From Parabacteroides johnsonii DSM 18315 (GTDB lineage: Bacteria > Bacteroidota > Bacteroidia > Bacteroidales > Tannerellaceae), in NCBI RefSeq assembly GCF_025151045.1, contig NZ_CP102285.1, positions 3,782,001-3,846,000 on the forward strand: a stretch of 64,000 bases of DNA, in the 5' to 3' direction. Below are positions 16,084 through 32,770 of this stretch, one piece after another. The stretch's first letter is position 1. Every line of letters starts with the position of its first letter. The translations under genes and the position numbers were made by a program. Under the pieces are notes generated by a model. The model was not told the origin of the DNA. It worked only from the letters and a program-made list of their open reading frames with translations, and did no database searches.

Positions 16084-16254
16084 TCACATAAATGCTATAT
16101 GAAGAAAACGGTCTCCCGATTTATATTTATCCTTCTTCGCCTCAAACACAAATTCTTTTGCAATCGTTTCCGCATCTTCAAAACTAAACCCATTTTCCGG
16201 CTGGCTCCAATACCAGAGCTGTGGCACATTCTTTTTACTATTCGGTGATTCCAT
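16084..16254 (-). CDS. Small uncharacterised protein, 56 residues
   Basis: A minus-strand frame from ATG at 16254 to TGA at 16084. The product begins MESPNSKKNVPQLWYWSQP and ends GDRFLHIAFM. Its composition is balanced and protein-like (aromatic QLWYWSQ, then an acidic and lysine-rich helix FSFEDAETIAKEFVFEAKK), with no signal peptide or membrane segment. An overlapping 82-residue frame on the same strand is arginine-rich and looks like its shadow. I do not recognise the family. It stands alone between the SulP terminator and the protease leader; it may be a real short gene or chance. Confidence 0.45.
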   Translation of the reverse strand: MESPNSKKNVPQLWYWSQPENGFSFEDAETIAKEFVFEAKKDKYKSGDRFLHIAFM

Positions 16255-16352
16255 TGTTTTATATATTTATCTAACTTTATCCATAAGACACAGAATATGA
16301 AAAAACCCCCATCCGGATCAGAAATAAATATTACATTTGCCAATCATACATT

Positions 16353-16412
16353 TAAATCTGTTTGTACCCTTAAACTGGATACCAGGATATTGGTTATATA
16401 CAAACAGATTTA
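16353..16412 (+). promoter_or_regulatory. Inverted repeat in the leader of the secreted protease gene
   Basis: TAAATCTGTTTGTA (16353-16366) and its exact reverse complement (16399-16412) are separated by 32 bases and end 18 bases before the ATG. In the mRNA this 14-bp stem would abut the ribosome-binding region, so it could control translation. A DNA operator is the alternative. Confidence 0.5.
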
Positions 16413-16430
16413 TATCAAATTATAAAATAT

Positions 16431-19232
16431 ATGAACAAAAAGGCCCTATTCCCGCTAATCGGTTTATTCCTGTTGGTAACAGGAATAGTCCTGCCCGGAT
16501 CTGCCCATGCACAAATCAGCGAAGGTGGAACACCCGCTTCCTTCAAGTATCAAAACACACTGAAAAGCGATCTGCCAACCGTCCAGATCCCCATCAATTT
16601 CAGCGTAGAAGACATGAAAACGGTCGACAGATGGCAGGTTAGCCAGGGGGCGCCGCTAAAAGTAGGAGTCTTGATCCCGACAGACCTGACAATCGACAAT
16701 GCCGGTGACTGGAGTACCCTACCTGACGGCAAAAAAGTATGGCGGCTGCAAGTACAGGCAAAAGATGCCATAGCCTTAATGCTCAGTTTCAAAGATTTTT
16801 ATATTCCTGAAAATGGAAAACTCTTTATTTACAGCTCTGATAAAACACACCTGATCGGTGCTTTTACTCATCATACCAACCCACCGACGAAAGAATACGC
16901 CACCGAATTTTTGGCCGGTGACAAAATCATACTCGAATATGAAACAGATATATCGGACAACGAACGTCCCCGCATTGCAATAGATGCTGTAGGGTACGGA
17001 TATAACCATTTGCATGTTTCACGCACGATGGCCGATATAGGTCCCAATGCCTCCGGATCTTGTATGGTAAATATCAATTGCGAAGAGGGAGAAGCTTGGC
17101 AAACAGAAAAAAATGGTGTTTGCCAAATGACATTACCTATTGGAAATTACATCTACATCTGCTCCGGATCTTTGGTAAACAACACTGCTGAAGATTTGAA
17201 ACCTTACATCCTTTCCGCTTTCCATTGCATTGATTTAGATGTACCCGTCACAGAAGAAAATTTAAACAAATACATTTTCTATTTCCATTTCGAACGCACG
17301 GGATGTGAAAATAACTCCAGTATTGCCTCCTACAAAACAATAACAGGTTGCAAGAAAGTCGCCGGAATCCCACTAGACGGCGGTTCAGATGGCCTGCTCT
17401 TATTGCTGAACCAAAATATTCCGGAACATTATAATGTCTATTACAATGGTTGGGACAGAAGCAACACGGCCGCTAAATCAGGTGTAGGCATCCACCACCC
17501 ATCAGGAGACTATATGAAAATATCAACTTTCAGTAAAACAGCAAAAACCTCGACATGGTACGGCGTAGACAACATCGAAGGTGCACCAAACGCACATTGG
17601 AGTACCGTTTTCGAACAAACGACCAACGGTCATTCCGTAACGGAAGGAGGATCTTCCGGCTCTCCACTTTTCAACCAAAACAAACTGATCGTCGGTACAT
17701 TGAGCGGCGGTTCATCTTCTTGCGAAAAACCGGATGGGATCAATACCTATGGCAAACTTTATTATCACTGGGACCAGTATAGCAAAGCCGATACAGCCCG
17801 TATGGATATTTATTTAGATCCCAGCCATACCGGTAAAACACAACTGTCCGGCCGATATGCGACAGCTCCAAAAGCAATGCCAACAGATCTGACATCGGCC
17901 TACCAAAACGGAGAAGTTCAATTGAAATGGAAAGCACCTACCTCTGCCAGCGACAAACCAGAACAATATAACGTTTATCGGAACAATACATTGATCGGAC
18001 GTACCTCTTCTACATCTTATATAGACAAAGAACCGGAAGTCGGTACCCAATCTTACAGCGTTTCCGCATCGTATATAGACGGCAAAGAGTCTGCTGTAGC
18101 CACCACATTGATTTATGTCTACGAACTAAAGATACCGACCGATGTAACAGCCTCGGCCGATGGAAAGAATATCCTTGTCAAATGGAAAGAACCTATCTAC
18201 CAGCAAATGATCTACTGGGGAAATGGGACAGCCTACCTTTCGTTAGGTTTCGGACAACCTTTCTATTTCGGACAAAGATGGAATAAAGAAGATCTGAAGC
18301 CTCTGCACGGAAACCTTGTTAAATCTGTTTCCTTCATACCTACCGCAGGTTCATCTTATACGTTGAACATCATACAAGGGAAACGGAAATATGTGCAAAA
18401 GTTGACTAATTTGTCTTTTGACAAATTGATTGAAATCACGCTTAAAGAACCGTTTGTCATTGATGCTTCCCAAGAACTAATCATTGCTTTCCATGCAGAA
18501 GCGAAACTATCCACCGCCTATCCAGCAATCATGGACGAAGGACCAGCAATCAATGGAAAAGGCAATTTGGTTTCATTTGACGGGGAAACATGGGAATATC
18601 TGTATGAACCTTCTGAAAATGAAGATGAAAATTATGATTTCAACTTCTTTCTTGCCGCCACCGTCAGTTCAGAAACAAAGGAAATACCGGCTACAAAAGC
18701 CACATCCGATGATACAATAGTGTTAAGTAAGTCATCAGCAATACCTATGTTCGCCCGGACATCTGAAGCAGGCTCCTCACTCCGGAGCAGCCAAGCAAGT
18801 GCATTTCCGGAAATAACAGGTTATAATATTTATCGCAACGGAAGCAAAATCGGTAACGTGCCCAATAAATCTATCACCCAATATACAGACAAACAAGCAC
18901 CAATAGGTAGTACCCTATATCAGGTTTCCACTCTATACGGAAAAGACGAAAGCAAGAAAGCAAATGCCGACAAAGAAATAAATGTGGACAATGAAAAGAT
19001 CATCCTTTCGGAGATGACGATCTCTCCTACTGCGTTTACAGATCAGATAGAACTACTAGGAAATGAGAAAGTGGAGTTGTTAGAAATCATCACGTCAAAC
19101 GGTAAAACGGTCATCCACCAAAGGAATCCCGGAAAGATTGTTTACACTGGCTCTCTTTCCTCCGGCATTTATATCTTCCGCATCCATACAGATGGAAAAG
19201 TTAAGACAATAAAAGCACGGAAAATAAATTGA
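16431..19232 (+). CDS. Secreted trypsin-like (lysyl endopeptidase-like) protease with type IX sorting domain
   Basis: A 933-residue exported protein with a signal peptide ending near SAHAQ. A prodomain follows, then an S1-like protease domain at about residues 205-475 resembling lysyl endopeptidase (Achromobacter protease I, P. gingivalis PepK). The triad candidates are His265 in LSAFHCI, Asp320 in GGSDGLLLLL and Ser409 in TEGGSSGSPLF. Fibronectin III-like segments follow (about 480-570 and again near 800-845), with an inserted beta-rich domain between. The C-terminal type A sorting domain (about 860-933, with LEIITSNGKTVI and SSGIYIFRIHT) directs export by the type IX system, of which PorZ is encoded 6 kb upstream. 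Cleavage after lysine is inferred from family only. Confidence 0.85.
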   Translation: MNKKALFPLIGLFLLVTGIVLPGSAHAQISEGGTPASFKYQNTLKSDLPTVQIPINFSVEDMKTVDRWQVSQGAPLKVGVLIPTDLTIDNAGDWSTLPDGKKVWRLQVQAKDAIALMLSFKDFYIPENGKLFIYSSDKTHLIGAFTHHTNPPTKEYATEFLAGDKIILEYETDISDNERPRIAIDAVGYGYNHLHVSRTMADIGPNASGSCMVNINCEEGEAWQTEKNGVCQMTLPIGNYIYICSGSLVNNTAEDLKPYILSAFHCIDLDVPVTEENLNKYIFYFHFERTGCENNSSIASYKTITGCKKVAGIPLDGGSDGLLLLLNQNIPEHYNVYYNGWDRSNTAAKSGVGIHHPSGDYMKISTFSKTAKTSTWYGVDNIEGAPNAHWSTVFEQTTNGHSVTEGGSSGSPLFNQNKLIVGTLSGGSSSCEKPDGINTYGKLYYHWDQYSKADTARMDIYLDPSHTGKTQLSGRYATAPKAMPTDLTSAYQNGEVQLKWKAPTSASDKPEQYNVYRNNTLIGRTSSTSYIDKEPEVGTQSYSVSASYIDGKESAVATTLIYVYELKIPTDVTASADGKNILVKWKEPIYQQMIYWGNGTAYLSLGFGQPFYFGQRWNKEDLKPLHGNLVKSVSFIPTAGSSYTLNIIQGKRKYVQKLTNLSFDKLIEITLKEPFVIDASQELIIAFHAEAKLSTAYPAIMDEGPAINGKGNLVSFDGETWEYLYEPSENEDENYDFNFFLAATVSSETKEIPATKATSDDTIVLSKSSAIPMFARTSEAGSSLRSSQASAFPEITGYNIYRNGSKIGNVPNKSITQYTDKQAPIGSTLYQVSTLYGKDESKKANADKEINVDNEKIILSEMTISPTAFTDQIELLGNEKVELLEIITSNGKTVIHQRNPGKIVYTGSLSSGIYIFRIHTDGKVKTIKARKIN

Positions 19233-19236
19233 AAAT

Positions 19237-19295
19237 AAAAAATGGAGGGTTGAAAAACAGTATGAATTCCTATACTTTTCAATCCTCCATTTTCC
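19237..19295. terminator. Bidirectional terminator between the protease and the radical SAM gene
   Basis: AAAATGGAGG..TTGAAAA pairs with TTTTCAA.CCTCCATTTT in a long, nearly complete stem with A-run on the left and T-run on the right, placed between two convergent genes. Confidence 0.8.
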
Positions 19296-19321
19296 ACTTC
19301 CTAATTTTTACTTTTTAAGCT

Positions 19322-20101
19322 TCACGCTGATACCATTACTTCAAACCCCTCCTGACGGGCACGGTCAGCAATAGCTTCCAATTCGTCTTTTGTCACCTTT
19401 TTTAAGTTCTTTACAGGAGTTTCGCGGTCGATTGTATAGATCATGACCTGTTTAGGTTTGATTTGTTTTAAAGCTTCCAGCCAGCCAGATATTTCGTGCT
19501 CGGTTGTATTTGTCACGCTTTCTCCGTTCACCTCTCCTTTCAGGAACATGGTTTGGATGATCAAGTTACCATTAAAACGGCAAAGTTGTTCCAACAACCA
19601 GTCAAAAGTAAAAGCCGGGGAATTGGGAACATTCAACTGCCCGATACGACTGTCCGAAATGGAATCGAGCTTCAATATATTATCTTCAATCTTATTCAAT
19701 GCCTGGAAAACATCCTCCTTATAAAGCATGGTCGAGTTCGAGAGCACGGCAATCTTAGCCTTCGGGAAAAAACAGTTACGGGTTTCAATCGTATCGTCGA
19801 TAATACCGGCAAATTCCGGGTGCATGGTAGGTTCTCCATTCCCGGCAAAAGTAATTACATCGGGAGCAACCCCCTCTGCCTGCATGGAAGACAATTTATG
19901 TATCAAAGCTTCCTTTACCTCTGCACGGGTTGGCAGTTTACTACGTGTACGATGGTTCTCGTTCAGTCCGCATTCACAATAGATGCAATTAAACGAACAA
20001 AGTTTCCCGTCTGTAGGAAGCAGGTTCATACCCAAAGAAACACCTAACCGACGGCTATGTATCGGTCCAAATACTATTTTATCAAAAAGAATTGTAGACA
20101 T
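19322..20101 (-). CDS. Radical SAM protein
   Basis: A 259-residue cytoplasmic protein with the radical SAM cluster motif CSFNCIYCECG (Cx3Cx2C) at about residues 34-44. The glycine-rich SAM-binding part is FAGNGEPTMHPEF near 94-106. The start FGPIHSRRLGVSLGMNLLP is typical of a family loosely annotated as wyosine-base-like radical SAM proteins in bacteria. The substrate is unknown. The upstream gene in the same direction (HHH/beta-barrel protein) ends 36 bases before the start, so they may share a transcript, but no functional link is evident. Confidence 0.88.
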   Translation of the reverse strand: MSTILFDKIVFGPIHSRRLGVSLGMNLLPTDGKLCSFNCIYCECGLNENHRTRSKLPTRAEVKEALIHKLSSMQAEGVAPDVITFAGNGEPTMHPEFAGIIDDTIETRNCFFPKAKIAVLSNSTMLYKEDVFQALNKIEDNILKLDSISDSRIGQLNVPNSPAFTFDWLLEQLCRFNGNLIIQTMFLKGEVNGESVTNTTEHEISGWLEALKQIKPKQVMIYTIDRETPVKNLKKVTKDELEAIADRARQEGFEVMVSA

Positions 20102-20137
20102 ACTGATTTATATTTGAGTACAAAGCTACAAAAGTTA

Positions 20138-22165
20138 TCAGAATTTCCAGCGCAACGACGTATATACATCTGCTTTCATATGTCCCTCGATCTCTTCCAG
20201 GTCGGTACCGATCACATCGCGATCAGCATAATATGTGTATCCGAATTTAGCAGAAAAAGAAAGTTGCTTCACGATATCCCACCGGAAAGAAAGTGCCAAC
20301 CGGACTCCTTTTCCATAAAAAGAAGGCATATTGAAAGCATACAATATATTTTTCTCATAAGAAAATATCCGGGTCCGATAATTATCCGTATGGAATCCGG
20401 CTACATAAAAATCTGTCTGAACAGGGATATCAACCGATTTCCAACCTACGCTCTGGGTAATCATCCATCCTTTGCTCTTTTTGCTCGTTTCTGTATAACA
20501 AATACCGTCAGCAGATGTCCGTAGCGAGACGGACGAAGAAATAGCATACAAGACTTGCATACGCAAACGTTGTTGAAAGTAAGGTTCTATATCTTCCTTT
20601 TGTTTGTATTTATAACGGACGTATACGGACAAGTTCCGGCTCGGTGTATAATCGAGTTGAAGCATATATTCCTTTCCTGTCGATGGTGCATCCACTCCAT
20701 ATTTCAGCCAGGGAAACCGGAATATATCTGCATACGCGGATAACTTCCAACGACTGAAAGGTGTCCATTGCATCCCCATATACACTCCTTGTTCATTTTG
20801 GACGGCCGAATTTTGTGAAAAAGCATTCCCGAAAAAAGCCTGATAGCGTTTATCATAATAACGATACAGTAACAGCAGGGAAAAATAAGAGGCAGGCGTC
20901 AACTGCAAGGCATTCAGGGAGGCAACCGTCCCATTCCGACTCATGGCCGTTTCGCCATAAAACTTGATCCACCTATTTTTCAACAGGTAATCCACACTGA
21001 TATTCAGATTCCGGTTACCGCGAAAATAGAAAAGGTTGTAAGGTTTCGGATCGGGTTGTATCGAATAGTTTCCAAAAGAATAAGAAAGAGCAGTCAAACC
21101 TATACATAAATCGGGAGTTGCATACCGTATATTCCCCCCATACGTCTGCATGGCAACTTTACGCATCTTCTCCCTGTCCCGTACCAAACGATGCAGACCA
21201 TCCGTTTTAAACGAAGTAACGATCGTACTATCCACGCTTCCATCCAACTTCCGATACGAATAGAACAGGCTGATATCTAAATTCTTCCAATTGACAGTAG
21301 CAGCAGCTCCCTGGAAAAAGTCATTTTCATTGGTTGAAAAATGACGGCGGAATCCGTTCGTCCTTCTTTCCGCTTGTGAGACAAGGGCATTCCGACTGGG
21401 AGAAAAATCATTGCTGATCACCAGACCTTGTCCGAAAGATATTTTGTAATCGCCTATAGCCAAACTTTTCAACCATTTATTCATATCTTTCAGAAAAAGA
21501 TGCATCGAATAATAGTCATACCCTTTATGATATTCATTCCAAAAAGGTTCTCCCGCATCTTTTTCTGCAACCAGACCGAACTGGATACGTTCATCGAATG
21601 CGTACGAATAACGAACAGAATGGTAGAACGGCTCTCCTAAATACTTCCGATTCGGATATTGTTGTAGCATACTGTCAGGATATGAACGATAGCCTTTCTT
21701 TTGTTGAAAACATCTATCATATCTGATTTGTAAGTTATTAGTACTTCTTTTCAACAGATTTTTCACTGTAATGGGACGTTTATCAACTATTATTTCACCG
21801 ATATAAACAAACGGGATAAACAGAGAAATCGTCTCTAAATCGAATGCTTCCACATTTTTAAGTTCATAAAGGGTTAACATTTTTCCATAACGGGAACGAT
21901 ATTCCAGCAATTCCCGTATTTGTAGATCAGATAGAAAAGGGAGACGTTTCAATTCTCCTTCCGTCACTGTATTGAGTTCGAAAGGATGTTCGACAAGATA
22001 GGAAAGATCAGTATAAAGCGCTTCAATACGCTCTTCATCTTCTGTTTCCGAAGCCATTTCTTCTATATATTCCATCCACTTATCAACAGAATATAATGTC
22101 TGGCTTTTAAGTTGATAACTGCTTATTAACAGATATACCAACAGGTTTATAAACATTCGTTTCAT
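20138..22165 (-). CDS. Helix-hairpin-helix plus beta-barrel envelope protein
   Basis: A 675-residue exported protein (an ATG two codons upstream at 22171 is also possible). The signal peptide is MKRMFINLLVYLLISSYQLKS. Residues about 40-125 hold tandem helix-hairpin-helix-like motifs (ELNTVTEGELKRLPFLSDLQ, GKMLTLYELKNVEAFDLETI) as in ComEA-type DNA-binding proteins. The remainder alternates polar and aromatic residues as in outer-membrane beta strands and ends LRWKF, with a terminal aromatic typical of barrels. The same architecture recurs in Bacteroidales without known function. DNA uptake is a speculative role. The PorV/PorQ-like gene upstream ends 12 bases before, suggesting an operon of two outer-membrane proteins. 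Confidence 0.72.
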   Translation of the reverse strand: MKRMFINLLVYLLISSYQLKSQTLYSVDKWMEYIEEMASETEDEERIEALYTDLSYLVEHPFELNTVTEGELKRLPFLSDLQIRELLEYRSRYGKMLTLYELKNVEAFDLETISLFIPFVYIGEIIVDKRPITVKNLLKRSTNNLQIRYDRCFQQKKGYRSYPDSMLQQYPNRKYLGEPFYHSVRYSYAFDERIQFGLVAEKDAGEPFWNEYHKGYDYYSMHLFLKDMNKWLKSLAIGDYKISFGQGLVISNDFSPSRNALVSQAERRTNGFRRHFSTNENDFFQGAAATVNWKNLDISLFYSYRKLDGSVDSTIVTSFKTDGLHRLVRDREKMRKVAMQTYGGNIRYATPDLCIGLTALSYSFGNYSIQPDPKPYNLFYFRGNRNLNISVDYLLKNRWIKFYGETAMSRNGTVASLNALQLTPASYFSLLLLYRYYDKRYQAFFGNAFSQNSAVQNEQGVYMGMQWTPFSRWKLSAYADIFRFPWLKYGVDAPSTGKEYMLQLDYTPSRNLSVYVRYKYKQKEDIEPYFQQRLRMQVLYAISSSVSLRTSADGICYTETSKKSKGWMITQSVGWKSVDIPVQTDFYVAGFHTDNYRTRIFSYEKNILYAFNMPSFYGKGVRLALSFRWDIVKQLSFSAKFGYTYYADRDVIGTDLEEIEGHMKADVYTSLRWKF

Positions 22166-22177
22166 TGTCAAACCTGA

Positions 22178-22984
22178 TTAAAAAGAATAACTCAACCCCA
22201 GTCCGGTACTGACTCCCAAAACCGGATGATAAACAGTCGCGACATCTACTGTAAATCCAGCCAGACGGTATCCGATACCCAAAGCAGGCAGGAGAGGAGT
22301 AGTCTGTACTCCCGCCCGTATACGAAAATTTTTGAACGGAGCATATTCAATACCCGCATTTCCGATCCATGTATGCTCTTTATTGCTTTCGATGGTTCCT
22401 ACTATCAACAAGCTGTTAATTATCTCCCATTGAAAACCTATTTGTACAGAATAACCAGTAAAACATTTTATTTCAGCTGTATATTTATGAATAGCAATGG
22501 CAGGAAAATTCATTATCAACACTCCAATCAACAGTTTGTCAACGGGAGTAAACAAGATTCCAACATCTGTGGAAAGTTGCTTCGGTACTTCTTCCCACAA
22601 CTCGGTCTGTAACATCTTATATTGGAAACTAATACCAATTCTCCACCGATCATTCAATCGTTTTCCGACCAACAAACGAAAAAGAGTTTCCCTATACTGA
22701 TCATATCCGAAAGAAGAGATATCAACACCTGCCGACAACAACGGATTAGGATAGACAAAGCCAACTCCCATCGTTCCCAACTCCTTTACACCATAACGAT
22801 TAAAATATTCGAAATAAAGAACTTTATCAGTATGCAAAGCCACCAGTGCCGGATTAAACAAAACAGATTGTGTAACTCCGTTTCCTCCCATTCCCAAGCA
22901 ACGGATATCGGGGATACGAAGGTTATCAACAGCATGAATGTTGATAGGTACAAAAAACAAAACGAGTAAACTTATTGATTTCAT
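22178..22984 (-). CDS. Outer-membrane beta-barrel protein, PorV/PorQ-like
   Basis: A 268-residue protein with signal peptide MKSISLLVLFFVPINIHA and the N-terminal pattern LGMGGNGVTQSVLFNPAL that resembles the start of PorV/PorQ and FadL-like barrels. The rest is amphipathic beta strands ending in GLGLSYSF with a terminal Phe. It is co-directional with the HHH/barrel gene, 12 bases apart. PorV and PorQ belong to type IX secretion, but this protein is shorter and its membership is not proven; a generic small porin is the alternative. Confidence 0.6.
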   Translation of the reverse strand: MKSISLLVLFFVPINIHAVDNLRIPDIRCLGMGGNGVTQSVLFNPALVALHTDKVLYFEYFNRYGVKELGTMGVGFVYPNPLLSAGVDISSFGYDQYRETLFRLLVGKRLNDRWRIGISFQYKMLQTELWEEVPKQLSTDVGILFTPVDKLLIGVLIMNFPAIAIHKYTAEIKCFTGYSVQIGFQWEIINSLLIVGTIESNKEHTWIGNAGIEYAPFKNFRIRAGVQTTPLLPALGIGYRLAGFTVDVATVYHPVLGVSTGLGLSYSF

Positions 22985-23018
22985 AGTAAGGTTTTGTTTA
23001 AATCGTCAACTTTCCGGA

Positions 23019-23198
23019 TTACTTTTTTTCAAAACTTTCTTCTTTAACTTTTACTACTACATTATTGATAAAGTTATTCCATTTTGCATAACCCAACAAA
23101 GGTTTCAGCTCCCTGGCACTCCAACATTCTATGCCTTCTACGATATTTGCAGCCGCTTCGAACTGATCCAATAACTTCTTGATCTCTTCTTTTTTCAT
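23019..23198 (-). pseudogene. Remnant of dinD (BRO-N family), N-terminal 59 codons
   Basis: A 59-residue frame starting MKKEEIKKLLDQFEAAANIV and continuing EGIECWSARELKPLLGYAKW. This is the N terminus of DNA-damage-inducible protein D (DinD) of Bacteroidales, which normally runs to roughly 280 residues. After NNFINNVVVKVKEESFEKK it stops, and no further DinD-like sequence follows before the next gene. It therefore looks like a truncated copy, though a functional micro-protein cannot be excluded. It is the second BRO-N-related gene in the window, besides the one in the cas operon. Confidence 0.65.
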
Positions 23199-23392
23199 AA
23201 TACAAGTTGTTTAAATGATGATTATTATGGACTATACATTCAGGATCGATAAATATGGAAAGATGGCGGAATGTTTCATAGTCTGTTGATTTTAGTTGTT
23301 TGTATTGTCACAAAGATAATGATTTCTCGGTGAGAAATGAAAAACTTTCACCACTTATAAAAAGATGAAAATAAATTTTCAATATTTCTCAC

Positions 23393-23438
23393 AGCATGAA
23401 AATAAATTTTCCCGCAAGTGAAAATTTATTTTCATGCT
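23393..23438. repeat. Perfect 19-bp inverted repeat, interspersed AT-rich palindrome family
   Basis: AGCATGAAAATAAATTTTC (23393-23411) and its exact reverse complement (23420-23438) flank an 8-base loop CCGCAAGT. A third partial copy precedes it near 23364. Thirty bases starting at 23394 recur identically at 48171-48200, so this is a dispersed repeat. It lies in the 320-base gap between the dinD remnant and the DUF4294 gene, which has no other gene. Confidence 0.88.
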
Positions 23439-23504
23439 ATCCTTTCTTATATTACATGATTAGTCAAATTCTGTAAAACCGGTAAATACTATCCGTAAAT
23501 CCAT

Positions 23505-23512
23505 TACTTTTG
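23505..23512 (+). promoter_or_regulatory. -7 box of the DUF4294 gene, implying an almost leaderless transcript
   Basis: TACTTTTG fits TAnnTTTG and ends only 6 bases before the ATG at 23519. If used, transcription would start at or beside the start codon. Confidence 0.4.
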
Positions 23513-23518
23513 TGAACG

Positions 23519-24124
23519 ATGTTAAGAAAAGGCAAGTATAAAATATTGATAATATTCATATTGTGTGCAGTAGGAGCCCATGCACAAAGATTGAAGATCA
23601 ATACCGTTCCCAAAGGATTGCAAAAGGCTTATCTGGATGGAAAGGATACGGTACCTGTCGTTAATCTTCGGGAAATTTATATTTATCCGCCGGTAAAGTT
23701 TAAAAACAAACGTGAACAAGCACGTTATACCAAGCTGGTCCGTGATGTGAAGCGCACATTACCTTATGCCAAAATGGTGTATGAAACATTGATTGAAACC
23801 TATGAATATATAGAGACGCTCCCCGACGAAAAATCTCGGCAGGCCCACCTGAAGCGAATGGAAAAAGAACTTTTCCAGGAATATAAACCTCAGTTGAAAA
23901 AACTGACCTTCTCACAAGGAAAACTACTTATCAAACTGATTGACAGAGAATGTAACCAGTCAAGTTATAACCTGTTGAAAGCCTATTTAGGCAGTTTCCG
24001 GGCAGGCTTTTGGAACATATTCGCCGGCATGTTCGGTGCCAGCCTGAAAACCGAATACGATCCCAAAGGAAAAGACGCCATGACGGAACGGGTAGTCGTA
24101 CTTGTCGAAAACGGATTAATCTGA
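23519..24124 (+). CDS. DUF4294 domain protein, exported
   Basis: A 201-residue protein with a signal peptide (MLRKGKYKILIIFILCAVGAHA). Its conserved body matches the Bacteroidetes DUF4294 family (VVNLREIYIYPPVKFKNKRE, YTKLVRDVKRTLPYAKMVYE, LTFSQGKLLIKLIDRECNQS). No catalytic motif is recognised and the function is unknown; location is probably periplasm or outer membrane. Its 3' end overlaps the convergent methyltransferase gene by 9 bases, and its promoter box nearly touches the start codon. Confidence 0.82.
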   Translation: MLRKGKYKILIIFILCAVGAHAQRLKINTVPKGLQKAYLDGKDTVPVVNLREIYIYPPVKFKNKREQARYTKLVRDVKRTLPYAKMVYETLIETYEYIETLPDEKSRQAHLKRMEKELFQEYKPQLKKLTFSQGKLLIKLIDRECNQSSYNLLKAYLGSFRAGFWNIFAGMFGASLKTEYDPKGKDAMTERVVVLVENGLI

Positions 24125-24646
24125 CAACTGTTTAAAGAAATCCCAGATAATGATACCGGTAGTCACCGAAACATTCAAAGAATGCTTGGTCCCGTACTGC
24201 GGTATTTCAATACACATATCACAGTTATCAACGACACATTGTTGAACACCTTTCACTTCGTTTCCCATGATAACAGCATACTTTTTATTCTTGTCCAACA
24301 ACAATTTATCCAACATCGTACTCCCCTCGGCCTGTTCAACCGCACAGACAGTATACCCTTGTTGCTTCAGTTTATCAACAGCGTCCATCGTATCTTCGAA
24401 ATATTCCCAACCGACAGTCTCTTCCGCTCCCAGAGCCGTCTTATGAATCTCTGCATGAGGCGGACAAGCCGTAATACCGCACAAATAAATGCTTTCTACT
24501 CTGAAAGCATCAGACGTACGAAACACGGATCCCACATTGTTTAAGCTTCTTACATGATCGAGCACAACGACCAACGGAATCTTTTCACTATCTTTGAATG
24601 CTTCCGGAGTCAAGCGGTTCAACTCTGTTATCTTTAACTTGCGCAT
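24116..24646 (-). CDS. SpoU/TrmH family RNA 2'-O-methyltransferase
   Basis: A 176-residue SPOUT-fold enzyme. MRKLKITELNRL is taken as the start; an ATG three codons upstream is possible. Motif 1 is VVLDHVRSLNNVGSVFRTSD, with the conserved Asn and Arg. The SAM-binding knot motifs are AVIMGNEVKGV and IEIPQYGTKHSLNVSVTTGI. Members methylate ribose 2'-OH in tRNA or rRNA; which nucleotide is not readable here. It diverges from the candidate origin region on its right and overlaps the DUF4294 gene tail by 9 bases. Confidence 0.92.
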   Translation of the reverse strand: MRKLKITELNRLTPEAFKDSEKIPLVVVLDHVRSLNNVGSVFRTSDAFRVESIYLCGITACPPHAEIHKTALGAEETVGWEYFEDTMDAVDKLKQQGYTVCAVEQAEGSTMLDKLLLDKNKKYAVIMGNEVKGVQQCVVDNCDMCIEIPQYGTKHSLNVSVTTGIIIWDFFKQLSD

Positions 24647-24683
24647 AGCTATCATTTCTTTGCTTGCAAAAGTAGTGAATTAA

Positions 24684-25109
24684 TGTGGATATGCCGTTGA
24701 AAAGCTATTGATAAGTGGTGGACACAAAATGAAAAATAGTTCTTGCATTATTCAATTTGTTCGCTATACATCCTCTTGTTTCTATTATGCAATAAAAATA
24801 ACAGATTATTTATTACGCCCTATCAACAGTGGTTATACACGTATCAACAGTCCTCAATCGTCATAAACTTTTACACACAGGTAGTTTTCAACTAAAAACT
24901 AATAAAGTCTATAAAGTAAAGGATATCAGTATGTAAAACAATAAATAGGATGTTAGTATCTATTTAATAAGTCGTTTACATCGTTTAATAACAAATCGGG
25001 CAAGTATTGTAGCATAATTGTATTAACTATTTCAACAGGCTATTATATTCATCATATTTAGATTTAAAATAAAGAATAAATAAGATTATAATAATATGAT
25101 TGTGGATAA
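24684..25109. other. Candidate chromosomal replication origin (oriC)
   Basis: The gap 24656-25325 (670 bases) holds no gene. It has one perfect DnaA box (TGTGGATAA, 25101-25109, reverse of TTATCCACA). Three relaxed ones are ATATCCACA in reverse at 24684-24692, TTATACACG at 24833-24841 and TTTTACACA at 24869-24877. TATCAACAGT occurs twice around the second box (24821, 24842). Between 24880 and 25100 the sequence is extremely A/T-rich, as in an unwinding element. Flanking genes diverge. In a minus-strand gene just left (24301-24360) the plus strand has 21 C and 7 G; in a plus-strand gene to the right (26701-26760) it has 20 G and 10 C. This fits an origin but coding strand alone could cause it. 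Confidence 0.45.
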
Positions 25110-25233
25110 CTCGGGAAAGAGGGAAGAAAGGGATAGAGAAAACGGCTGGGAGTCTTTGTGACTTGTCTGGCTGACTCTATCTTGCCCTATAAATATTATC
25201 TATTGAGCAATAGAAATATTTTGTATATGTAAA

Positions 25234-25266
25234 TTTGCCGTTTGCCTGAACATTTTCCTACCTTTG
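25234..25266 (+). promoter_or_regulatory. Promoter of the rubrerythrin gene
   Basis: TTTG (25234-25237), 21 bases, then TACCTTTG (25259-25266): both Bacteroidetes elements at canonical spacing. A leader of about 50 bases precedes the ATG at 25326. Confidence 0.7.
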
Positions 25267-25325
25267 AGCGTTATTTATTCAGGATGATTATACGAACTCA
25301 TTTTATATATACATAAATTAGCATT

Positions 25326-25904
25326 ATGGAAAAAAGTATTAAGGGTACTCGTACCGAGCAGAATCTGCTGAAATCATTTGCCGGCGAATCTCAGGCAAGA
25401 AGTCGTTACACATTCTTTGCAAGTGTAGCTAAAAAAGAAGGTTATGAACAAATTGCAGGCGTGTTTATGGAAACAGCCGAACAGGAAAAGGAACACGCCA
25501 AACGTTTCTTCAAATTCCTCGAAGGCGGTATGGTTGAAATCACGGCTTCTTATCCTGCCGGAATGATCGGAACGACTGCTGAAAACCTGGCTGCCGCTGC
25601 TGCTGGCGAAAACGAAGAATGGGTAGACCTTTACCCTGCTTTCGCTGACATTGCTGACGAAGAAGGTTTCAAGGAAATCGCTGTTGCTTTCCGTATGATC
25701 GCAAAGGTAGAAGCAGAACACGAAAGACGTTACCGTCAGTTGTTGGCGAATGTGGAAGCAAACAAGGTATTCGAAAAAGACGAAGCTATTATGTGGCAGT
25801 GTCGCAACTGTGGTTTCGTATTCGAAGGCAAGAAAGCTCCGGCGAAATGTCCGGCTTGTGCACATCCGCAGGCTTACTTCGAACCGATGAAACAGAACTA
25901 TTAA
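25326..25904 (+). CDS. rbr: Rubrerythrin
   Basis: A 192-residue cytoplasmic non-heme iron protein that reduces hydrogen peroxide in anaerobes. The ferritin-like di-iron domain (about 1-150) carries the Glu motifs [26 protein letters not shown] and [13 protein letters not shown]. The C-terminal rubredoxin-like domain has two CxxC pairs, CRNCGF and [13 protein letters not shown], which bind one iron. Length and domain order are standard. It is a single-gene unit with a consensus promoter and its own terminator, as expected for an oxidative-stress gene. Confidence 0.97.
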
Positions 25905-25925
25905 TCAGAGTTTTTGATCCTATCA

Positions 25926-25957
25926 GGCACGAATTTTCCGGATTCGTGCCTTTTTTT
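25926..25957 (+). terminator. Rho-independent terminator of rbr
   Basis: GGCACGAAT/ATTCGTGCC stem with a 7-base loop followed by seven T. Confidence 0.92.
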
Positions 25958-26014
25958 ATTTTATAACTTTTACCTTTAGCCCCATTATTGGCGTTAATCT
26001 GAATTTACCTGTTG

Positions 26015-26908
26015 ATGAGCATATCGATAAGAAACCTCAATAAAGTGTATCCGAACGGAAATCATGCGTTGAAAGATGTCTGTCTGGAAATACCGACCGG
26101 TATGTTCGGACTTCTGGGTCCGAATGGGGCAGGCAAATCTACTTTGATGCGTATTTTAGTGGCTCTTATGGAACCGACTTCGGGCGAGGTGAATATCTGT
26201 GGGTATGACCTGATGCGGCAACGCAAGGAGATACGGGGCATATTGGGATATCTGCCACAGGATTTCCGTTTTTTTGCCAAATATAAAACGTACGAGTTTT
26301 TAGACTATGCCGCGCGTCTTTCCGGCATAAACCGTAAGTCTTTGCGGAAAAATGCGGTGGACGAGATGCTGGAAAATGTCGGGCTTTTTGACGTGCGCGA
26401 TCGGTATGCCAATAAGCTGTCGGGAGGTATGAAGCGCCGTTTGGGGATTGCGCAAGCATTGATTCATCATCCGAAAGTGATTATCGTAGACGAACCTACG
26501 ACGGGACTCGACCCCGAAGAACGGATCCGTTTCCGCAACCTCCTGTCGGAAGTCAGTGAAAACGACGTGACAATTATCCTTTCCACCCATATCGTAGGCG
26601 ATATATCGAGCACATGCAATTGTATGGCGCTTATGAATAAGGGAGAAGTTTCCTTCTATGGTTCCCCGCAGGAGATGTTGAGGCAGGCGGAAGGAAAAGT
26701 ATGGCGTATACGGGTGACCGGTGACGAACTGCATGAGGTGGATAAACTGTATCCGGTTATCTCGACGATTCCCTCCGGTACGGGTTGGGAAGTGCAGGTC
26801 GTGGCTGATGAGGTACAAGGATATGACGCAGAATCCTATCCGCCGAATCTGGAACATGCTTATGTCTACTATATGGAAAACAAGTTGAACCGTTGGAGAA
26901 ACGATTAA
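26015..26908 (+). CDS. ABC transporter ATP-binding protein, first gene of the hybrid RND/ABC operon
   Basis: A 297-residue ATPase starting MSISIRNLNKVYPNGNHALK; a TTG one codon upstream is less likely. Walker A is GLLGPNGAGKST (about 34-45), the Q-loop region is LGYLPQDFRFF, the signature is KLSGGMKRRLGIA and Walker B is VIIVDEPTTGLD, with a His switch in STHIVGD. A C-terminal extension (WRIRVTGDELHEVDK) is shared with the ATPase domain fused to the RND permease downstream, so the two are paralogues. The next gene, an ABC-2 permease, starts 16 bases later and is its likely partner. It opens a co-directional operon ending at 41555. Confidence 0.95.
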   Translation: MSISIRNLNKVYPNGNHALKDVCLEIPTGMFGLLGPNGAGKSTLMRILVALMEPTSGEVNICGYDLMRQRKEIRGILGYLPQDFRFFAKYKTYEFLDYAARLSGINRKSLRKNAVDEMLENVGLFDVRDRYANKLSGGMKRRLGIAQALIHHPKVIIVDEPTTGLDPEERIRFRNLLSEVSENDVTIILSTHIVGDISSTCNCMALMNKGEVSFYGSPQEMLRQAEGKVWRIRVTGDELHEVDKLYPVISTIPSGTGWEVQVVADEVQGYDAESYPPNLEHAYVYYMENKLNRWRND

Positions 26909-26924
26909 AAGAGATCGCTTGCCT

Positions 26925-29900
26925 ATGTCATTTATCACAAACATACGATCCGTAGCTAAATACGAGAGCAAGATATTGGTGAGGAGTTGGTTCTTCCGTA
27001 TCTTCACTCTGCTTGCCGTGGTGTTTTTAGGTTTTTTCAACTTTGCCATGATGTTGATGGAGGATAATTTTGGCCTGTGGTTCGCAAAATCGGTTTCATC
27101 CAATATTCCCTATCTGAACTTGTTGCTGTTGAACACGGGGCAGGCAGTGGTCGCTGTCTTCCTTTCTTCCGAATTTCTAAAACGGGACAAGAAGCTCGAT
27201 ACTTCCGAAGTCTTTTATGTCCGGCCGCTCAGTAATGCCGAATATGTGATCGGGAAGATATGGGGGAATCTCAGGGTGTTCCTGCTCCTGAACCTGCTGG
27301 TCTTGGCTATTGTGCTGGCTTTTAACTTTATGGCTTCCGGCATAACTGTCGATTGGCAGGCCTATGGGGTGTATTTCCTTCTGATCAGCCTGCCGACACT
27401 GATCTTTATTATTGGCCTTTCCATTTTTCTGATGCTGGTGTTGAGGAATCAGGCGCTTACTTTCATCTTGTTGTTAGGATATATCGGACTGACGTTGTTT
27501 TATATACAGGATAAGTTCTACTACCTGTTCGATTATATGGTGTATAACTTGCCGTTGTTCAAATCGACGATTGTCGGATTCAGCAGCTTGGAGTTGATCT
27601 TGAATCACCGGGCGATTTATTTCTTTGCCGGTTTGGGATTCATCTTCTTTACGATCTTCCTGTTCAAGCGGTTGCCGAATGCCAGAAGGAGCCATTATCC
27701 GTGGCTGTTTCTTTCGCTTTGTATGTTCTTGCTGGCGGGGACGGCGGGTTACCGGCATGTACGTTCTATTCTTAGGGAAGGGGAGATACGTGCCTTATAC
27801 ACAAGCATCAATAATAAATATGTTCATGAGCCGAAGATAGCGATCGATTGGTACGATATTTCGGTGGAGCAGAAGCCTGAAACGATCTGTTCTGTTGTCG
27901 GGATGAAAGGGACGGCGCTCGCTACGTCGGAAATATTTACCTTCTGCCTGAATCCCGGATTGAAAGTCGGGGAGGTAAAGGAAGGGGAAAAGCCATTGGA
28001 TTTCAAGCGGGAGGAACAGATTTTAGCGGTAGATTTCGGGAGGAAGATAGAAAAGGGAGATACCATTTCGCTTTCGATCTGTTACGAGGGGAGGATAAAG
28101 GATGATTTCTGCTATTTGGATATCCCGGAGGAGGTCTTACAACAACCGTATGATAAGGAAATGCTTAAGCTTGATAAGAAATATAGTTTCCAGACACCCG
28201 ATTATGTGCTGTTTACGCCTGAAACCTATTGGTATCCACGTCCTGGAACGGGGTATAGCGACAAGAGTCCTGACTGGCAACAGACCTATTTCAGCCGTTT
28301 TCGACTGGATGTGAAGCCGCTTCCCGGGCTGGTCTCTATTTCGCAGTCGGCAAACAATCCTTATCAGTCCATTTCCTTGATTATCGGGAAATACGAGCAG
28401 AAGAGTGTGGAAAGTGACAGTACGCTCTATAGTGTCTGGCATATAAAAGGACACGATTATTACGAGGCGGCGTTCGATTCGATCCGCGATACGATTCCGG
28501 GATTGATCCGCAACCTGCGGGAGAACCTCGAACGCACGTATAAGTTGAGTTACCCGTTCGACAGGTTTTCAGTAGTGGAAGTTCCGGCACAGTTCTACAG
28601 TTATGTCCGTTCCTGGTCGCAAGCACAAGAAGTGGTGCAGCCGGAAATGGTTCTTTTCCCGGAACTGGGCTGTATGTTTGGTCAGATGGACTTCGTCAGA
28701 AGTAAGAAAAACCAGTTGAAGTGGTCGAAGCGGGGAGGACGTGAGATCGGTGAGGAGGAAGCGGAGATTCGGGTGATGAACAGTTTCCTGTGGATTTTCT
28801 CGCAGACGGAAGGTAACTATAACTATTCTTCCGGTAGCCGGGGCAAATTCAATATATCTTCCCAGAGTAATCCGTATTTCCTGTTTCCCGAACTCTATAA
28901 TTTCCGGTATAATATCTATTCTTCCGAATGGCCTGTCACGAACCGGCTGGTCGAACTTTATCTGCAAAGGAAGTCCGATAATAACGGATGGGAACGTGAG
29001 ATAAACGGGATCAGCAATAACGAGAAAGCGAATTTACTGATGGAGAGATATTCGTTTAAAGAGCTTTTGTCTGATGTGGAACATCGCGATTTGCTGAATA
29101 ATACGATCAGTCTGAAGGGGTATTGCTTGTTTGCTCCTGCCGAAGTGAATATGGGGGTAAGCCTGTTCAGGGATTCCCTGTATGCCCTGTTGGAACGGAA
29201 TGAATTTCGTAATATGCGCTTCGAGAACCTGTTGGATACGTTGGGGATGATCAGTGGGGCCGATATTCGTGCGGGTATTTCCGGGTGGGATCGTCCGACG
29301 CCTCTTCCTTTCTATACGATCGGTCAGCCCGAAGTGATCAAGATTACGAACAAGGGACAGGAGAGTTTCGTCCTGAAGCAATTAGTCAGCAATAATTCCG
29401 ATAGAGACGGTATGCTTCAACTTGATATACAGGCTGGGGGGTATGGCCCGAATATCGATCCGCGTACGAGTCGTAAACTGCCTCTTGCCGCCCACCAGAC
29501 CAAGCTGTTGGTAACGGTCTGGGAAGAAGCACCTCGCCAGGTGGATGTGAATACGCTGATAGCGGGAAACCTGCCAAATATATTGAACCTGCCTGTTTCC
29601 AACATCCGGGAAGAACGGGAGAGGGGGGTTGATGCCGAAGGGGATTTCATTGTTGCAGACTTTTCTCCCGAAGTGGAAGGAGAGGTGATTGTGGATAATG
29701 AAGATGCTCTTTTCTCTCTGTCTGAACCTGCTGTCGTCGGGCTTCTGCCCAAATGGCTCGACAAGGTGGAAGATACCTCTTTCAAGTATGCCGGTGTTTC
29801 TCCTTGGCGTGCCCCGTTGCAGTGGACGGCTACGACGAATGCAGCCTATTATGGCCGTTATATCCGGTCAGCCTATGTGATCAAGAGCGGTAACGGTAGT

Positions 29901-30197
29901 CAGACGGCCACTTGGAAAGTTCCGGTTCCTTCTGCCGGGCAATACGATGTCTACTATTATGTTTCTAAAGACAATGAACTGAAATATAATAAACAGGCCG
30001 GCGGGGAATACCATTTTAAGGTGGAGTATGATGAGGAAAATGAAGATGCTTATATCGATCTGAGAAAAGCGAATGAAGGGTGGGAGCCTATAGGTACCTA
30101 CTACTTCAGTTCCGATACGGTCCGGGTCGTCCTGACGAATGAGTGCAAACTACGGAGTGTAACAGCTGATGCAGTTAAAATAGTAAAACGATATTAA
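26925..30197 (+). CDS. ABC-2 type permease fused to a large extracytoplasmic region with golvesin-like C-terminal domain
   Basis: A 1090-residue membrane protein starting MSFITNIRSVAKYESKILV. About seven hydrophobic helices lie in residues 20-280 (IFTLLAVVFLGFFNFAMML, VFLLLNLLVLAIVLAFNFM, ALTFILLLGYIGLTLFYI and others), as in ABC-2 permeases. Some 800 residues follow outside the membrane. The middle (about 430-860) resembles the layout of permeases fused to M1-type aminopeptidase domains, but no HExxH zinc motif is present, so any peptidase would be dead. Residues about 960-1090 look like a golvesin/Xly carbohydrate-binding-like domain (ATWKVPVPSAGQYDVYYYVS and SVTADAVKIVKRY). It probably pairs with the ATPase just upstream. 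The substrate is unknown; the periplasmic part could grip a polymer or contact the TolC/adaptor proteins. Confidence 0.72.
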   Translation: MSFITNIRSVAKYESKILVRSWFFRIFTLLAVVFLGFFNFAMMLMEDNFGLWFAKSVSSNIPYLNLLLLNTGQAVVAVFLSSEFLKRDKKLDTSEVFYVRPLSNAEYVIGKIWGNLRVFLLLNLLVLAIVLAFNFMASGITVDWQAYGVYFLLISLPTLIFIIGLSIFLMLVLRNQALTFILLLGYIGLTLFYIQDKFYYLFDYMVYNLPLFKSTIVGFSSLELILNHRAIYFFAGLGFIFFTIFLFKRLPNARRSHYPWLFLSLCMFLLAGTAGYRHVRSILREGEIRALYTSINNKYVHEPKIAIDWYDISVEQKPETICSVVGMKGTALATSEIFTFCLNPGLKVGEVKEGEKPLDFKREEQILAVDFGRKIEKGDTISLSICYEGRIKDDFCYLDIPEEVLQQPYDKEMLKLDKKYSFQTPDYVLFTPETYWYPRPGTGYSDKSPDWQQTYFSRFRLDVKPLPGLVSISQSANNPYQSISLIIGKYEQKSVESDSTLYSVWHIKGHDYYEAAFDSIRDTIPGLIRNLRENLERTYKLSYPFDRFSVVEVPAQFYSYVRSWSQAQEVVQPEMVLFPELGCMFGQMDFVRSKKNQLKWSKRGGREIGEEEAEIRVMNSFLWIFSQTEGNYNYSSGSRGKFNISSQSNPYFLFPELYNFRYNIYSSEWPVTNRLVELYLQRKSDNNGWEREINGISNNEKANLLMERYSFKELLSDVEHRDLLNNTISLKGYCLFAPAEVNMGVSLFRDSLYALLERNEFRNMRFENLLDTLGMISGADIRAGISGWDRPTPLPFYTIGQPEVIKITNKGQESFVLKQLVSNNSDRDGMLQLDIQAGGYGPNIDPRTSRKLPLAAHQTKLLVTVWEEAPRQVDVNTLIAGNLPNILNLPVSNIREERERGVDAEGDFIVADFSPEVEGEVIVDNEDALFSLSEPAVVGLLPKWLDKVEDTSFKYAGVSPWRAPLQWTATTNAAYYGRYIRSAYVIKSGNGSQTATWKVPVPSAGQYDVYYYVSKDNELKYNKQAGGEYHFKVEYDEENEDAYIDLRKANEGWEPIGTYYFSSDTVRVVLTNECKLRSVTADAVKIVKRY

Positions 30198-30234
30198 TAG
30201 AATTAGATACATGATACGAAGAGAATTACTATCC

Positions 30235-31710
30235 ATGAAAAAGATAATGCTGACGGCCGCCGTTTGCTTGGGGGTATCTGTCCCGTCGCAGGGGCAGGTA
30301 TCTCTGACGATCGAGAAGGCGATGGATATAGCGGAAGAGCATAGTCCTTCCCTACGCCGTTCCCACATGAACCTGGAACGCTATCAGCAGAACCTGGTTG
30401 CACAGCGAGCTTCCCTGAAATCGAAATTCTCGTTGAATCTTAATCCGGTGGATTATAGTAAGAGTCGCAGTTTCGATAATCGCCTGTCTCAGTGGTACAC
30501 GAACGAGCGGTTCAGTACGACCGGAACGTTTCAGGTGGATCAGCCGATCTTGTGGACGGATGGTGTCCTCTCGTTGATCAACCGTTTCGGCTGGCAGGAT
30601 AACAACTCTAATATCGACGGTACGAAGACCAGCAACAAGGCATTCAGCAACGACCTCTACCTGCAACTCTCGCAATCTATTTTTACTTATAATAAACGTA
30701 AGATGGAATTGCAACAGATCGAATACGATTATGAAAATGCCAATATCAGCTATGCACTGCAACGGTTGAGTACGGAGAAGGATATTACCCAGCAGTTCTA
30801 TTCTGTTTATATGGCACAAAGCCAGTTGGCCATTACTAAGGAGGAACTGACCAATGCACAGCAAAGCTACGAAATTATAAAGAATAAGGTGGAAGCCGAC
30901 CTGGCTGCCCGTGATGAGTTGTTCCAGGCGGAAGTGAATCTCGCCTCCGCACGCTCTTCCCTGGAAGAACAGCAGGTGTCGCTGGAAAACTCGAAAGACC
31001 AGTTGAAGCAGACGTTAGGGATGGACCTGAACGAGGATATCATGGTTTTTGCCGAAGTACAGATCAAGCCGGTGGAAGTGAATCTGGAAAAGGCGATACA
31101 GCATGGCCTCGAATCGCGCCTGGAACTGCGGCAGCGTGAGATCGAGAGTAAAGAACTGGCTTTCGATATGATCAAGACGAAGGCTCTGAATGAGTTCAAG
31201 GGAGATATTGCTCTTTCTTTCGGTTTGATCGGTGATAACCGACATCTGGAAAAGATTTATAATAACCCGACACAGAATCCACGTGTTGCCATCAGCTTCA
31301 GTGTCCCGATTTTTGATTGGGGAGAGAAGAAAGCCCGTGTCAAGGCGCAGGAAGTAGCCCAGAAGATCAACCGGCTGGAGTTTCATGAAGACAAAGTTAA
31401 TATCGAATTGAATATCCGTCAGACCTGGCGCAGCCTGGAGAATTTGCTTTCGCAGATCAAGATAGCCGAGCAGAACGTTGCAAATGCACAGCGTACCTAT
31501 GACCTGAATCTGACCCGTTATCGGGAGGGTGATATCACTGGTATGGATATGAACCAGTTCCAAACTCAGCTTTCAAATAAAAAGATCGCCTATACGCAGG
31601 CGCTTATCAATTATAAGATCGAATTGTTGAACCTCAAGATACTTTCCCTCTACGACTTCGAGCACGACATGCCTATTGTCCCGATGGAAGATTTAGTAAC
31701 GAAAAAGTAA
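30235..31710 (+). CDS. TolC family outer-membrane efflux channel
   Basis: A 491-residue protein taken from MKKIMLTAAVCLGVSVPSQG, a good signal peptide; an in-frame ATG eight codons upstream is possible. The mature part begins SLTIEKAMDIAEEHSPSLRR, typical of the outer-membrane efflux protein fold. Two long helical repeats follow with periodic heptads (ITKEELTNAQQSYEIIKNKV and IAEQNVANAQRTYDLNLTRY). TolC proteins form trimeric tunnels from periplasm to the outside. The adaptor lipoprotein gene starts 1 base after the stop, so the channel, adaptor and RND pumps form a classic tripartite set inside this operon. Confidence 0.93.
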   Translation: MKKIMLTAAVCLGVSVPSQGQVSLTIEKAMDIAEEHSPSLRRSHMNLERYQQNLVAQRASLKSKFSLNLNPVDYSKSRSFDNRLSQWYTNERFSTTGTFQVDQPILWTDGVLSLINRFGWQDNNSNIDGTKTSNKAFSNDLYLQLSQSIFTYNKRKMELQQIEYDYENANISYALQRLSTEKDITQQFYSVYMAQSQLAITKEELTNAQQSYEIIKNKVEADLAARDELFQAEVNLASARSSLEEQQVSLENSKDQLKQTLGMDLNEDIMVFAEVQIKPVEVNLEKAIQHGLESRLELRQREIESKELAFDMIKTKALNEFKGDIALSFGLIGDNRHLEKIYNNPTQNPRVAISFSVPIFDWGEKKARVKAQEVAQKINRLEFHEDKVNIELNIRQTWRSLENLLSQIKIAEQNVANAQRTYDLNLTRYREGDITGMDMNQFQTQLSNKKIAYTQALINYKIELLNLKILSLYDFEHDMPIVPMEDLVTKK

Positions 31711-31711
31711 T

Positions 31712-32770
31712 ATGAATATGAAATATATAGTCACATCTCTCTTATTGTTTGTCTTGTTGGCGACCGGTTGTAATAATCAGCCGCAGAATACACAGAACGA
31801 TATTGCTACGCCCGTGTCGGTAACGGAATTGAAGAAAGGCTCTATCAGCAAACTGGTCAATACGACCGGGACGGCACAGCCTACCTATGGAGTAACGCTC
31901 AATTCCGAAATGAGCGGTCTGTATAAACTACAAACCAATCCCCGTACAGGCAAACCCTTTAAATTGGGTGATATCGTCTCCAAAGGACAACTGATTGTCC
32001 GCCTGGAAGACCGGGAATACGAAAACGGCATCGCTATTGACGCTAAAGAGTTGAGTCTCGAAATAGCCGAACAGGAGCAGGTGAAACAGAAAGCTCTTTA
32101 TGAGAAAGGTGGTGTGACGCTTAGCGAAATGCGTAATACGGAAGTGAAAGTGACGAACGCCCGCTACGACTACGAGAACGGTAAGCTCAATTTGGAGAAA
32201 ATGAATGTCAAAGCACCTTTCGACGGTGTGATCGTGGACTTGCCCCATTATACATCCGATGTCCGTATCGAACAGGGGAAACCGGTGGTCGGCATCATGG
32301 ACTATGCCCGTATGTACATGGATATCAACCTGCCGGAAAGTGCTATCGGGTATGTGAAGGCGGATCAGCCGGTCTATATCACCCATTATACGTTGCCCGA
32401 AGATACGATCCGGGGAGTAATCAGCGAACTGTCGCCTGCCATCAGTTCTGAAACCCGTACTTTCAAAGGAAAGATACTAATTCAGAACGAGGGGTTGAAA
32501 CTTCGTCCCGGTATGTTTGTCAAAGCAGATATTGTGGTGAATAAGGCGGACAGTGCCATCATCATACCAAAAAGTGTGATCCAGTCCAACCGTCGTATCA
32601 AATACGTTTATATTGTTGAGAAGAACACGGCTCTGCTCCGCGAGCTTAAGACCGGGCTGGAGGATGACAAGAATATCCAGGTATTGGAAGGACTGAAAGA
32701 GAACGATAACTTAGTAGTGAAAGGTTTCGAGACATTAAAAGAGAATGCAAAGGTAAAAGTCCAGAAATGA
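31712..32770 (+). CDS. RND efflux periplasmic adaptor (membrane-fusion) lipoprotein
   Basis: A 352-residue lipoprotein: signal MNMKYIVTSLLLFVLLATGC with lipobox LATGC, the Cys at about residue 20. The family layout is seen: a first lipoyl half (LNSEMSGLYKLQTNP, GDIVSKGQLIVRLED), a short helical hairpin (about 110-150), a second lipoyl half (LNLEKMNVKAPFDGVIVDLP) and beta-barrel parts ending with VVKGFETLKENAKVKVQK. It bridges the RND pump in the inner membrane and TolC. Its stop overlaps the start of the RND gene by 4 bases (ATGA), so translation is coupled. Confidence 0.94.
   Translation: MNMKYIVTSLLLFVLLATGCNNQPQNTQNDIATPVSVTELKKGSISKLVNTTGTAQPTYGVTLNSEMSGLYKLQTNPRTGKPFKLGDIVSKGQLIVRLEDREYENGIAIDAKELSLEIAEQEQVKQKALYEKGGVTLSEMRNTEVKVTNARYDYENGKLNLEKMNVKAPFDGVIVDLPHYTSDVRIEQGKPVVGIMDYARMYMDINLPESAIGYVKADQPVYITHYTLPEDTIRGVISELSPAISSETRTFKGKILIQNEGLKLRPGMFVKADIVVNKADSAIIIPKSVIQSNRRIKYVYIVEKNTALLRELKTGLEDDKNIQVLEGLKENDNLVVKGFETLKENAKVKVQK

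Follow-up and report, generated by a model that had tools for sequence, protein, structure and literature searches.

At a standard oriC, DnaA gathers on its DnaA boxes and opens an A/T-rich element, and two helicases are loaded. The Escherichia coli origin is separate from dnaA (excerpt of PMC8287927), as is the locus described here. The same excerpt gives the DnaA-trio search pattern as a box with at most 2 mismatches, followed by a spacer of 0-16 bp and at least 3 NAN triplets (PMC8287927). In the Bacteroidetes, an oriC far from dnaA is stated to be common (excerpt of PMC4755523). Here we describe a gap between two divergent genes that, judging from its sequence and from the corresponding loci of its relatives, is almost certainly the predicted oriC of the Parabacteroides chromosome, the place where copying starts.

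Results

A gene-free gap between trmH and a rubrerythrin gene

The DNA analysed (the window; 64 kb) comprises bases 3,782,001-3,846,000 of a single contig of 4,749,455 bases, and positions below are those of the window unless stated otherwise (Table 1). As a first-pass annotation of the window had described, the gap at 24656-25325 is gene-free (670 bp), A/T-rich (70% A+T, 30% G+C) and flanked by divergent genes. The minus-strand neighbour encodes a SpoU/TrmH-family RNA methylase (the gene is called trmH), and the plus-strand neighbour is a rubrerythrin gene. The trmH-encoded protein has its best named match in Parabacteroides massiliensis (97%), and its nearest records are from Parabacteroides. 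In contig numbering, the predicted oriC core next to trmH is 3,806,656-3,807,166. The annotation had also held that most genes on the immediate left read leftward; they are mixed instead, with about 9.0 kb of plus-strand and 10.3 kb of minus-strand coding DNA in 1-24000.

Table 1. Features of the predicted origin region and of the chromosome (window positions, except for the 16S genes, which are in contig Mb)
Feature	Position	Strand	Remarks
nadA-like quinolinate synthase gene	12718-13704	-	displaced ~11 kb by the putative inversion; from position and synteny
Former nadA-side flank of the predicted oriC	13705-13905	.	left with nadA; inverted repeat TATTATCAAC...GTTGATAATA
Segment inverted as a unit relative to G013	14146-25166	.	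flanking genes, trmH and predicted oriC
trmH (SpoU/TrmH-family RNA methylase)	24116-24655	-	Pfam PF00588; constant neighbour of the predicted oriC
Predicted oriC core, conserved non-coding block beside trmH	24656-25166	.	from blastn, 38-sequence alignment and G013 local alignment
DnaA-box-like ATATCCACA	24684-24692	-	one mismatch to TTATCCACA
DnaA-box-like TTATCAATA	24706-24714	-	conserved
DnaA-box-like CTATCAACA	24820-24828	+	first TATCAACAGT copy; conserved
DnaA-box-like TTATACACG	24833-24841	+	conserved as TTATACAC
DnaA-box-like GTATCAACA	24841-24849	+	second TATCAACAGT copy
Overlapping DnaA-box-like TTTTACACA and TTACACACA	24869-24879	+	
Predicted DNA unwinding element	25041-25100	.	least stable 60 bp of the 64-kb window, nearest-neighbour energy scan
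Perfect DnaA box TTATCCACA	25101-25109	-	abuts the unwinding element; majority TTGTGGATAA in 38-sequence alignment
Inferred inversion breakpoint, core vs rubrerythrin promoter region	25167-25188	.	G013 alignments end/start here
Rubrerythrin upstream region	25189-25325	.	~10-13 kb from oriC in G013 and G020
Rubrerythrin gene	25326-25904	+	Pfam PF02915; new neighbour of the predicted oriC in this genome
16S genes	2.70, 2.91, 3.16 Mb	-	
16S genes	4.13, 0.59, 0.67 Mb	+	

DnaA boxes and a predicted unwinding element

The gap contains a cluster of DnaA boxes beyond chance. A 9-mer was counted as a box if it differed from TTATCCACA, TTATCAACA or TTATACACA at no more than one position; these three forms were chosen after looking at the gap of this genome and kept unchanged for the gaps of the relatives. 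Counted in this way, the gap has 8 box-like sites against a shuffle mean of 0.98, and none of 100 dinucleotide shuffles reached 8. With 11.9 sites per kb vs 1.28, it ranked first among 68 gene-free gaps (250 bp or longer) from the window and 40 further stretches of the genome, and the highest box count among 21,022 sliding 463-bp segments also falls within it. When the strict single consensus TTATCCACA was used with at most one mismatch, 2 sites were found in the gap, a density that does not stand out within the window. The first-pass annotation had listed one perfect and three relaxed boxes, and more were found: besides the perfect box on the minus strand and one site with a single mismatch to TTATCCACA, there are six further sites with one mismatch to TTATCAACA or TTATACACA. 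The paired repeats that it had pointed out are present as well: there are exactly two copies of TATCAACAGT in the window, one at 24821 and the other 21 bp further on, at 24842.

An A/T-rich, easily melted element lies beside a DnaA box in the gap. The 60-bp segment with the lowest predicted stability ends exactly where the perfect box starts, and in many congeners the unwinding element is found at the same place relative to trmH.

Genome-wide, the pattern TTATCMACA occurs at 183 sites vs 93 for the reversed control, a count that was kept out of the origin argument. Nine further DnaA-box-like sites, including two exact copies of TTATCAACA, are clustered at 21702-22513, in the region of two minus-strand ORFs and about 2.5 kb away from the predicted oriC; this second cluster could be a titration site or could have arisen by chance.

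Conservation of the gap in related genomes

The gap DNA was searched for in 41 genomes (this genome and 40 others), and matches were found in 26. Close congeners match the trmH-side block (about 24656-25118) with 67-94% blastn identity over most of its length, about 460 bp on the trmH side being kept across the genus, and a local alignment with the relative G013 reaches about 25166. In several congeners, the last 77-137 bp of the gap match elsewhere, upstream of rubrerythrin. A 38-sequence alignment, for which the window and those loci with a trmH at least 75% identical and 500 bp or more of upstream DNA were taken from 76 sequences (L088 dropped), has conserved islands at the boxes and at 25016-25111.

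A nadA gene divergent to trmH across a gap of less than 1.5 kb was found in 30 of 80 named loci, some loci being too short to tell. By coordinates, nadA and trmH face each other in 17 of the 24 other genomes of the genus; outside this number are four genomes with the two genes 5-13 kb apart (G003, G008, G009, G011), G010 (nadA on another contig), G004 (no nadA match) and G024 (nadA adjacent to a second trmH-like copy alone). Read by eye from tables, the same arrangement is present in 12 of 118 other genomes from the order. The second trmH-like gene of G024, a draft genome, is 70% identical and lies beside a nadA-like gene (G024:C68:3204-3725); it is either a contamination or a true second copy.

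The 30 named nadA-trmH gaps contain 168 boxes vs 27.06 in shuffles (shuffle maximum 38), with single gaps that have no box excess (L077, L082) or a weak one (L063, L078, L084, L108), and each of the 12 order-wide gaps exceeds all of its 100 shuffles in box count. In 18 of the 30 named and 5 of the 12 order-wide gaps, a minus-reading box lies no more than about 12 bp from the right edge of the least stable 50 bp; among these pairs, one box overlaps the least stable segment by 7 bp. All nine relatives with both sides fetched (G012, G013, G015, G018, G021, G008, G009, G016, G026) show a minus-to-plus change of skew across the core, and G011 and G022, which had the right side alone fetched and are outside this count, are both positive there. 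The same change is found at 10 of the 12 order-wide loci, a set that shares G026 with the nine relatives and includes right flanks of just 538 (G084) and 1,441 bases (G054), while G092 and G052 have no sign change. At ±160 kb, the sign holds in 8 of 10 stretches sampled from five relatives, the two wrong ones being in G021 and G012. By these comparisons, the predicted origin is conserved among the relatives and has an equivalent setting there.

GC skew changes sign at the gap

Skew was sampled in forty 12-kb stretches, about 10% of the 4.75-Mb chromosome. The arms were taken as 1.51-3.806 Mb (left) and the rest (right), the 1.51-Mb boundary being read from the same data. Skew is negative in 18 of 18 stretches of the left arm and positive in 21 of 22 of the right arm, so that 39 of the 40 stretches fit sign changes solely at the gap and near 1.5 Mb. 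The sole misfit, at 240 kb, is a stretch with nearly all of its coding on the minus strand, and its skew is opposite to that of its arm. Cumulative GC skew is lowest in the gap: cumulative G-C of the 64-kb window reaches its minimum at 24,878, and the minus-to-plus change can be placed at the gap with a precision of a few kb. The plus-to-minus change near 1.5 Mb is not far from the antipode (about 1.43 Mb). The first-pass annotation had noted the sign change across the gap, and a skew minimum elsewhere on the chromosome would have spoken against its reading; in the roughly 10% of the chromosome sampled, the minus-to-plus change is at the gap and not elsewhere.

Could the skew change instead reflect gene-strand bias alone, as the annotation had cautioned, with the gap being an ordinary A/T-rich double promoter? 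Coding is indeed biased (160 kb plus vs 66 kb minus in the right arm, 111 kb minus vs 61 kb plus in the left arm), and the gap does sit between divergent genes. However, when all genes are read along the plus strand, pooled GC3 skew is -0.173 in 46 plus genes and -0.124 in 91 minus genes of the left arm, and +0.122 in 113 plus genes and +0.152 in 52 minus genes of the right arm. Since GC3 skew has the same sign in the genes of both strands on each arm, gene direction does not set the sign of the skew, and for the same reason the mixed gene direction left of the gap leaves the skew unaffected. An ordinary double promoter would also be at odds with the first rank of the gap among the 68 gaps of the same genome in box-like sites, and with a non-coding block that remains beside trmH even in genomes with a different gene on the other side. 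We therefore consider strand bias with a double promoter to be a very improbable explanation.

dnaA and other chromosome marks

The gap is about 942 kb from dnaA, as dnaA is the first gene of the contig (position 1; a single PF08299 match at 1111-1317, 101.5 bits). The genome encodes a canonical DnaA, whose translation contains the canonical C-terminal helix-turn-helix signature, RDHATVLHA. Skew is positive on both sides of dnaA (0.230 before, 0.109 after), and thus dnaA is not at the origin; the 1 kb upstream of dnaA has one box-like site. An oriC beside dnaA is therefore not the arrangement of this chromosome. All six 16S genes are directed away from the gap. Using the parS consensus, we found a single exact parS-like palindrome in the genome, at contig position 3,731,668 (75 kb from the gap), and a one-mismatch site at 3,951,339 (144 kb from the gap), while the reversed control pattern had no sites in the genome.

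An inversion at the edge of the predicted origin

The trmH-rubrerythrin pair was considered as a conserved origin frame and rejected, as it is present in 1 of 110 loci examined, 30 of which had about 1.5 kb of flank or less on one side, some being shorter at contig ends.

The gap is a mosaic of the trmH-side core and the rubrerythrin upstream region, while in most relatives the predicted oriC lies between nadA and trmH. Compared with G013, window positions 5728-13356 and 25189-35881 match in reverse, and 14146-21456 match forward, as do trmH and the core. The gap in G013 has the order trmH, core, nadA, and its nadA side matches the window at 13300-13905 over 606 bp with 94% identity, including the start of nadA (the gene at 12718-13704, presumably nadA from its protein sequence). 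A single inversion of about 11 kb, with its ends near 14146 and 25166, would explain the differences from G013. At the far breakpoint, about 240 bp (13906-14145) with tandem and inverted CGACNTTGTCG repeats had no match in the two G013 stretches compared, and between the two breakpoints we found no clear inverted repeats that would account for the inversion. Upstream of nadA, at 13825-13849, lies an inverted repeat TATTATCAAC-TATAA-GTTGATAATA that is similar in G013 and is perhaps a nadA regulator site or a pair of DnaA-like boxes.

Since the trmH-nadA arrangement is common in the genus, the present genome probably has the derived arrangement. As the inversion would have moved trmH and the predicted oriC together, every gene would have kept its leading or lagging relation to the fork. 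The plus-strand genes at 5881-12615, left of the predicted origin, run toward it; in G013, the DNA matching window 5728-13356 is inverted and on the other side of the core. The four genomes with nadA 5-13 kb from trmH suggest repeated rearrangement at the edge of the origin.

It might also be argued that the true origin is the nadA-side flank (13705-13905) and that the gap is just its former partner. The two pieces do form one gap in non-inverted relatives, and the nadA side carries a few box-like sites together with the inverted repeat. Nevertheless, the conserved boxes and the unwinding element sit on the trmH side, the cumulative skew minimum is in the gap, and skew is negative in the DNA separating the two pieces, which is what a position left of a trmH-side core predicts. 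Strand relations point the same way: with the core as the origin, the moved genes keep their relation to the fork, whereas with the nadA-side piece as the origin the inverted segment would not. In addition, where nadA is 5-13 kb off (G003, G008, G009, G011), some of the block still has a match next to trmH. An origin on the nadA side is thus hardly credible. Even less can be said for a DnaA-titration or regulatory site (datA/DARS-like) near an origin elsewhere close by, whose probability is close to negligible: DnaA boxes alone do not prove initiation and another box-like cluster is about 2.5 kb away, but the skew change is located at the gap within a few kb and an abutting unwinding element is a feature of origins.

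Discussion

The location of the gap, its skew change, boxes and unstable segment, its conservation, and the inversion at its edge are all read from the DNA itself, and the reading of the gap as a candidate origin in the first-pass annotation is supported. As a whole, these features are best explained if the gap is the single chromosomal oriC, opened by DnaA, with two forks departing from it and a right end that was brought in by an inversion; we put the probability of this explanation at about 0.95.

We infer that DnaA binding, opening, helicase loading and initiation take place at the gap. DnaA, whose gene lies about 942 kb away, would bind the scattered box cluster, and DnaA at the perfect box (25101-25109) would open the adjacent 60 bp (25041-25100), where the helicase would be loaded. 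Two forks would then depart in opposite directions and meet near 1.5 Mb. The functional core would be roughly 0.5 kb next to trmH, and the right end of the gap would be the rubrerythrin promoter region, placed there by the inversion of about 11 kb.

We lean towards the view that, in part of the Bacteroidales, the origin is a unit of about 0.5 kb tied to trmH and usually facing nadA, which is flipped or given a new neighbour by small inversions that break directly at its edge. The present genome would then be a natural experiment, indicating that the nadA-side half is not needed in place for origin function, and the inversion would delimit the working origin. For Parabacteroides, a precise and testable predicted origin is now at hand, about 0.5 kb beside trmH. 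Coverage-based (peak-to-trough) estimates of growth rate need the right origin, and a numbering that starts at dnaA would place it about 942 kb off; the predicted origin could also be used in building replicating vectors. In the open-licence literature (PubMed Central), we found no paper that deals with the origin of Parabacteroides, with an origin between nadA and trmH, or with the inversion. A DoriC entry for the origin in this gap may already exist, and the placing of the origin between nadA and trmH, with an inversion bordering it, may be the less known part.

Like the oriC of E. coli, the gap has an A/T-rich opening region beside DnaA boxes, but the two differ in neighbours, box number and spacing. 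It also resembles the basal unwinding system of Bacillus subtilis, in which a strong box lies beside the opening site (excerpt of PMC8287927). The general DnaA-trio pattern of B. subtilis would occur by chance in DNA as A/T-rich as the gap, and is judged uninformative here. The predicted oriC of Prevotella intermedia OMA14 and the Bacteroidetes oriCs in DoriC are, like the gap, far from dnaA, at a skew change and furnished with several DnaA boxes (excerpt of PMC4755523). As an origin far from dnaA is already in print as common in the phylum, our finding confirms a known arrangement; in this genome, an inversion has given the predicted oriC a new right-hand neighbour.
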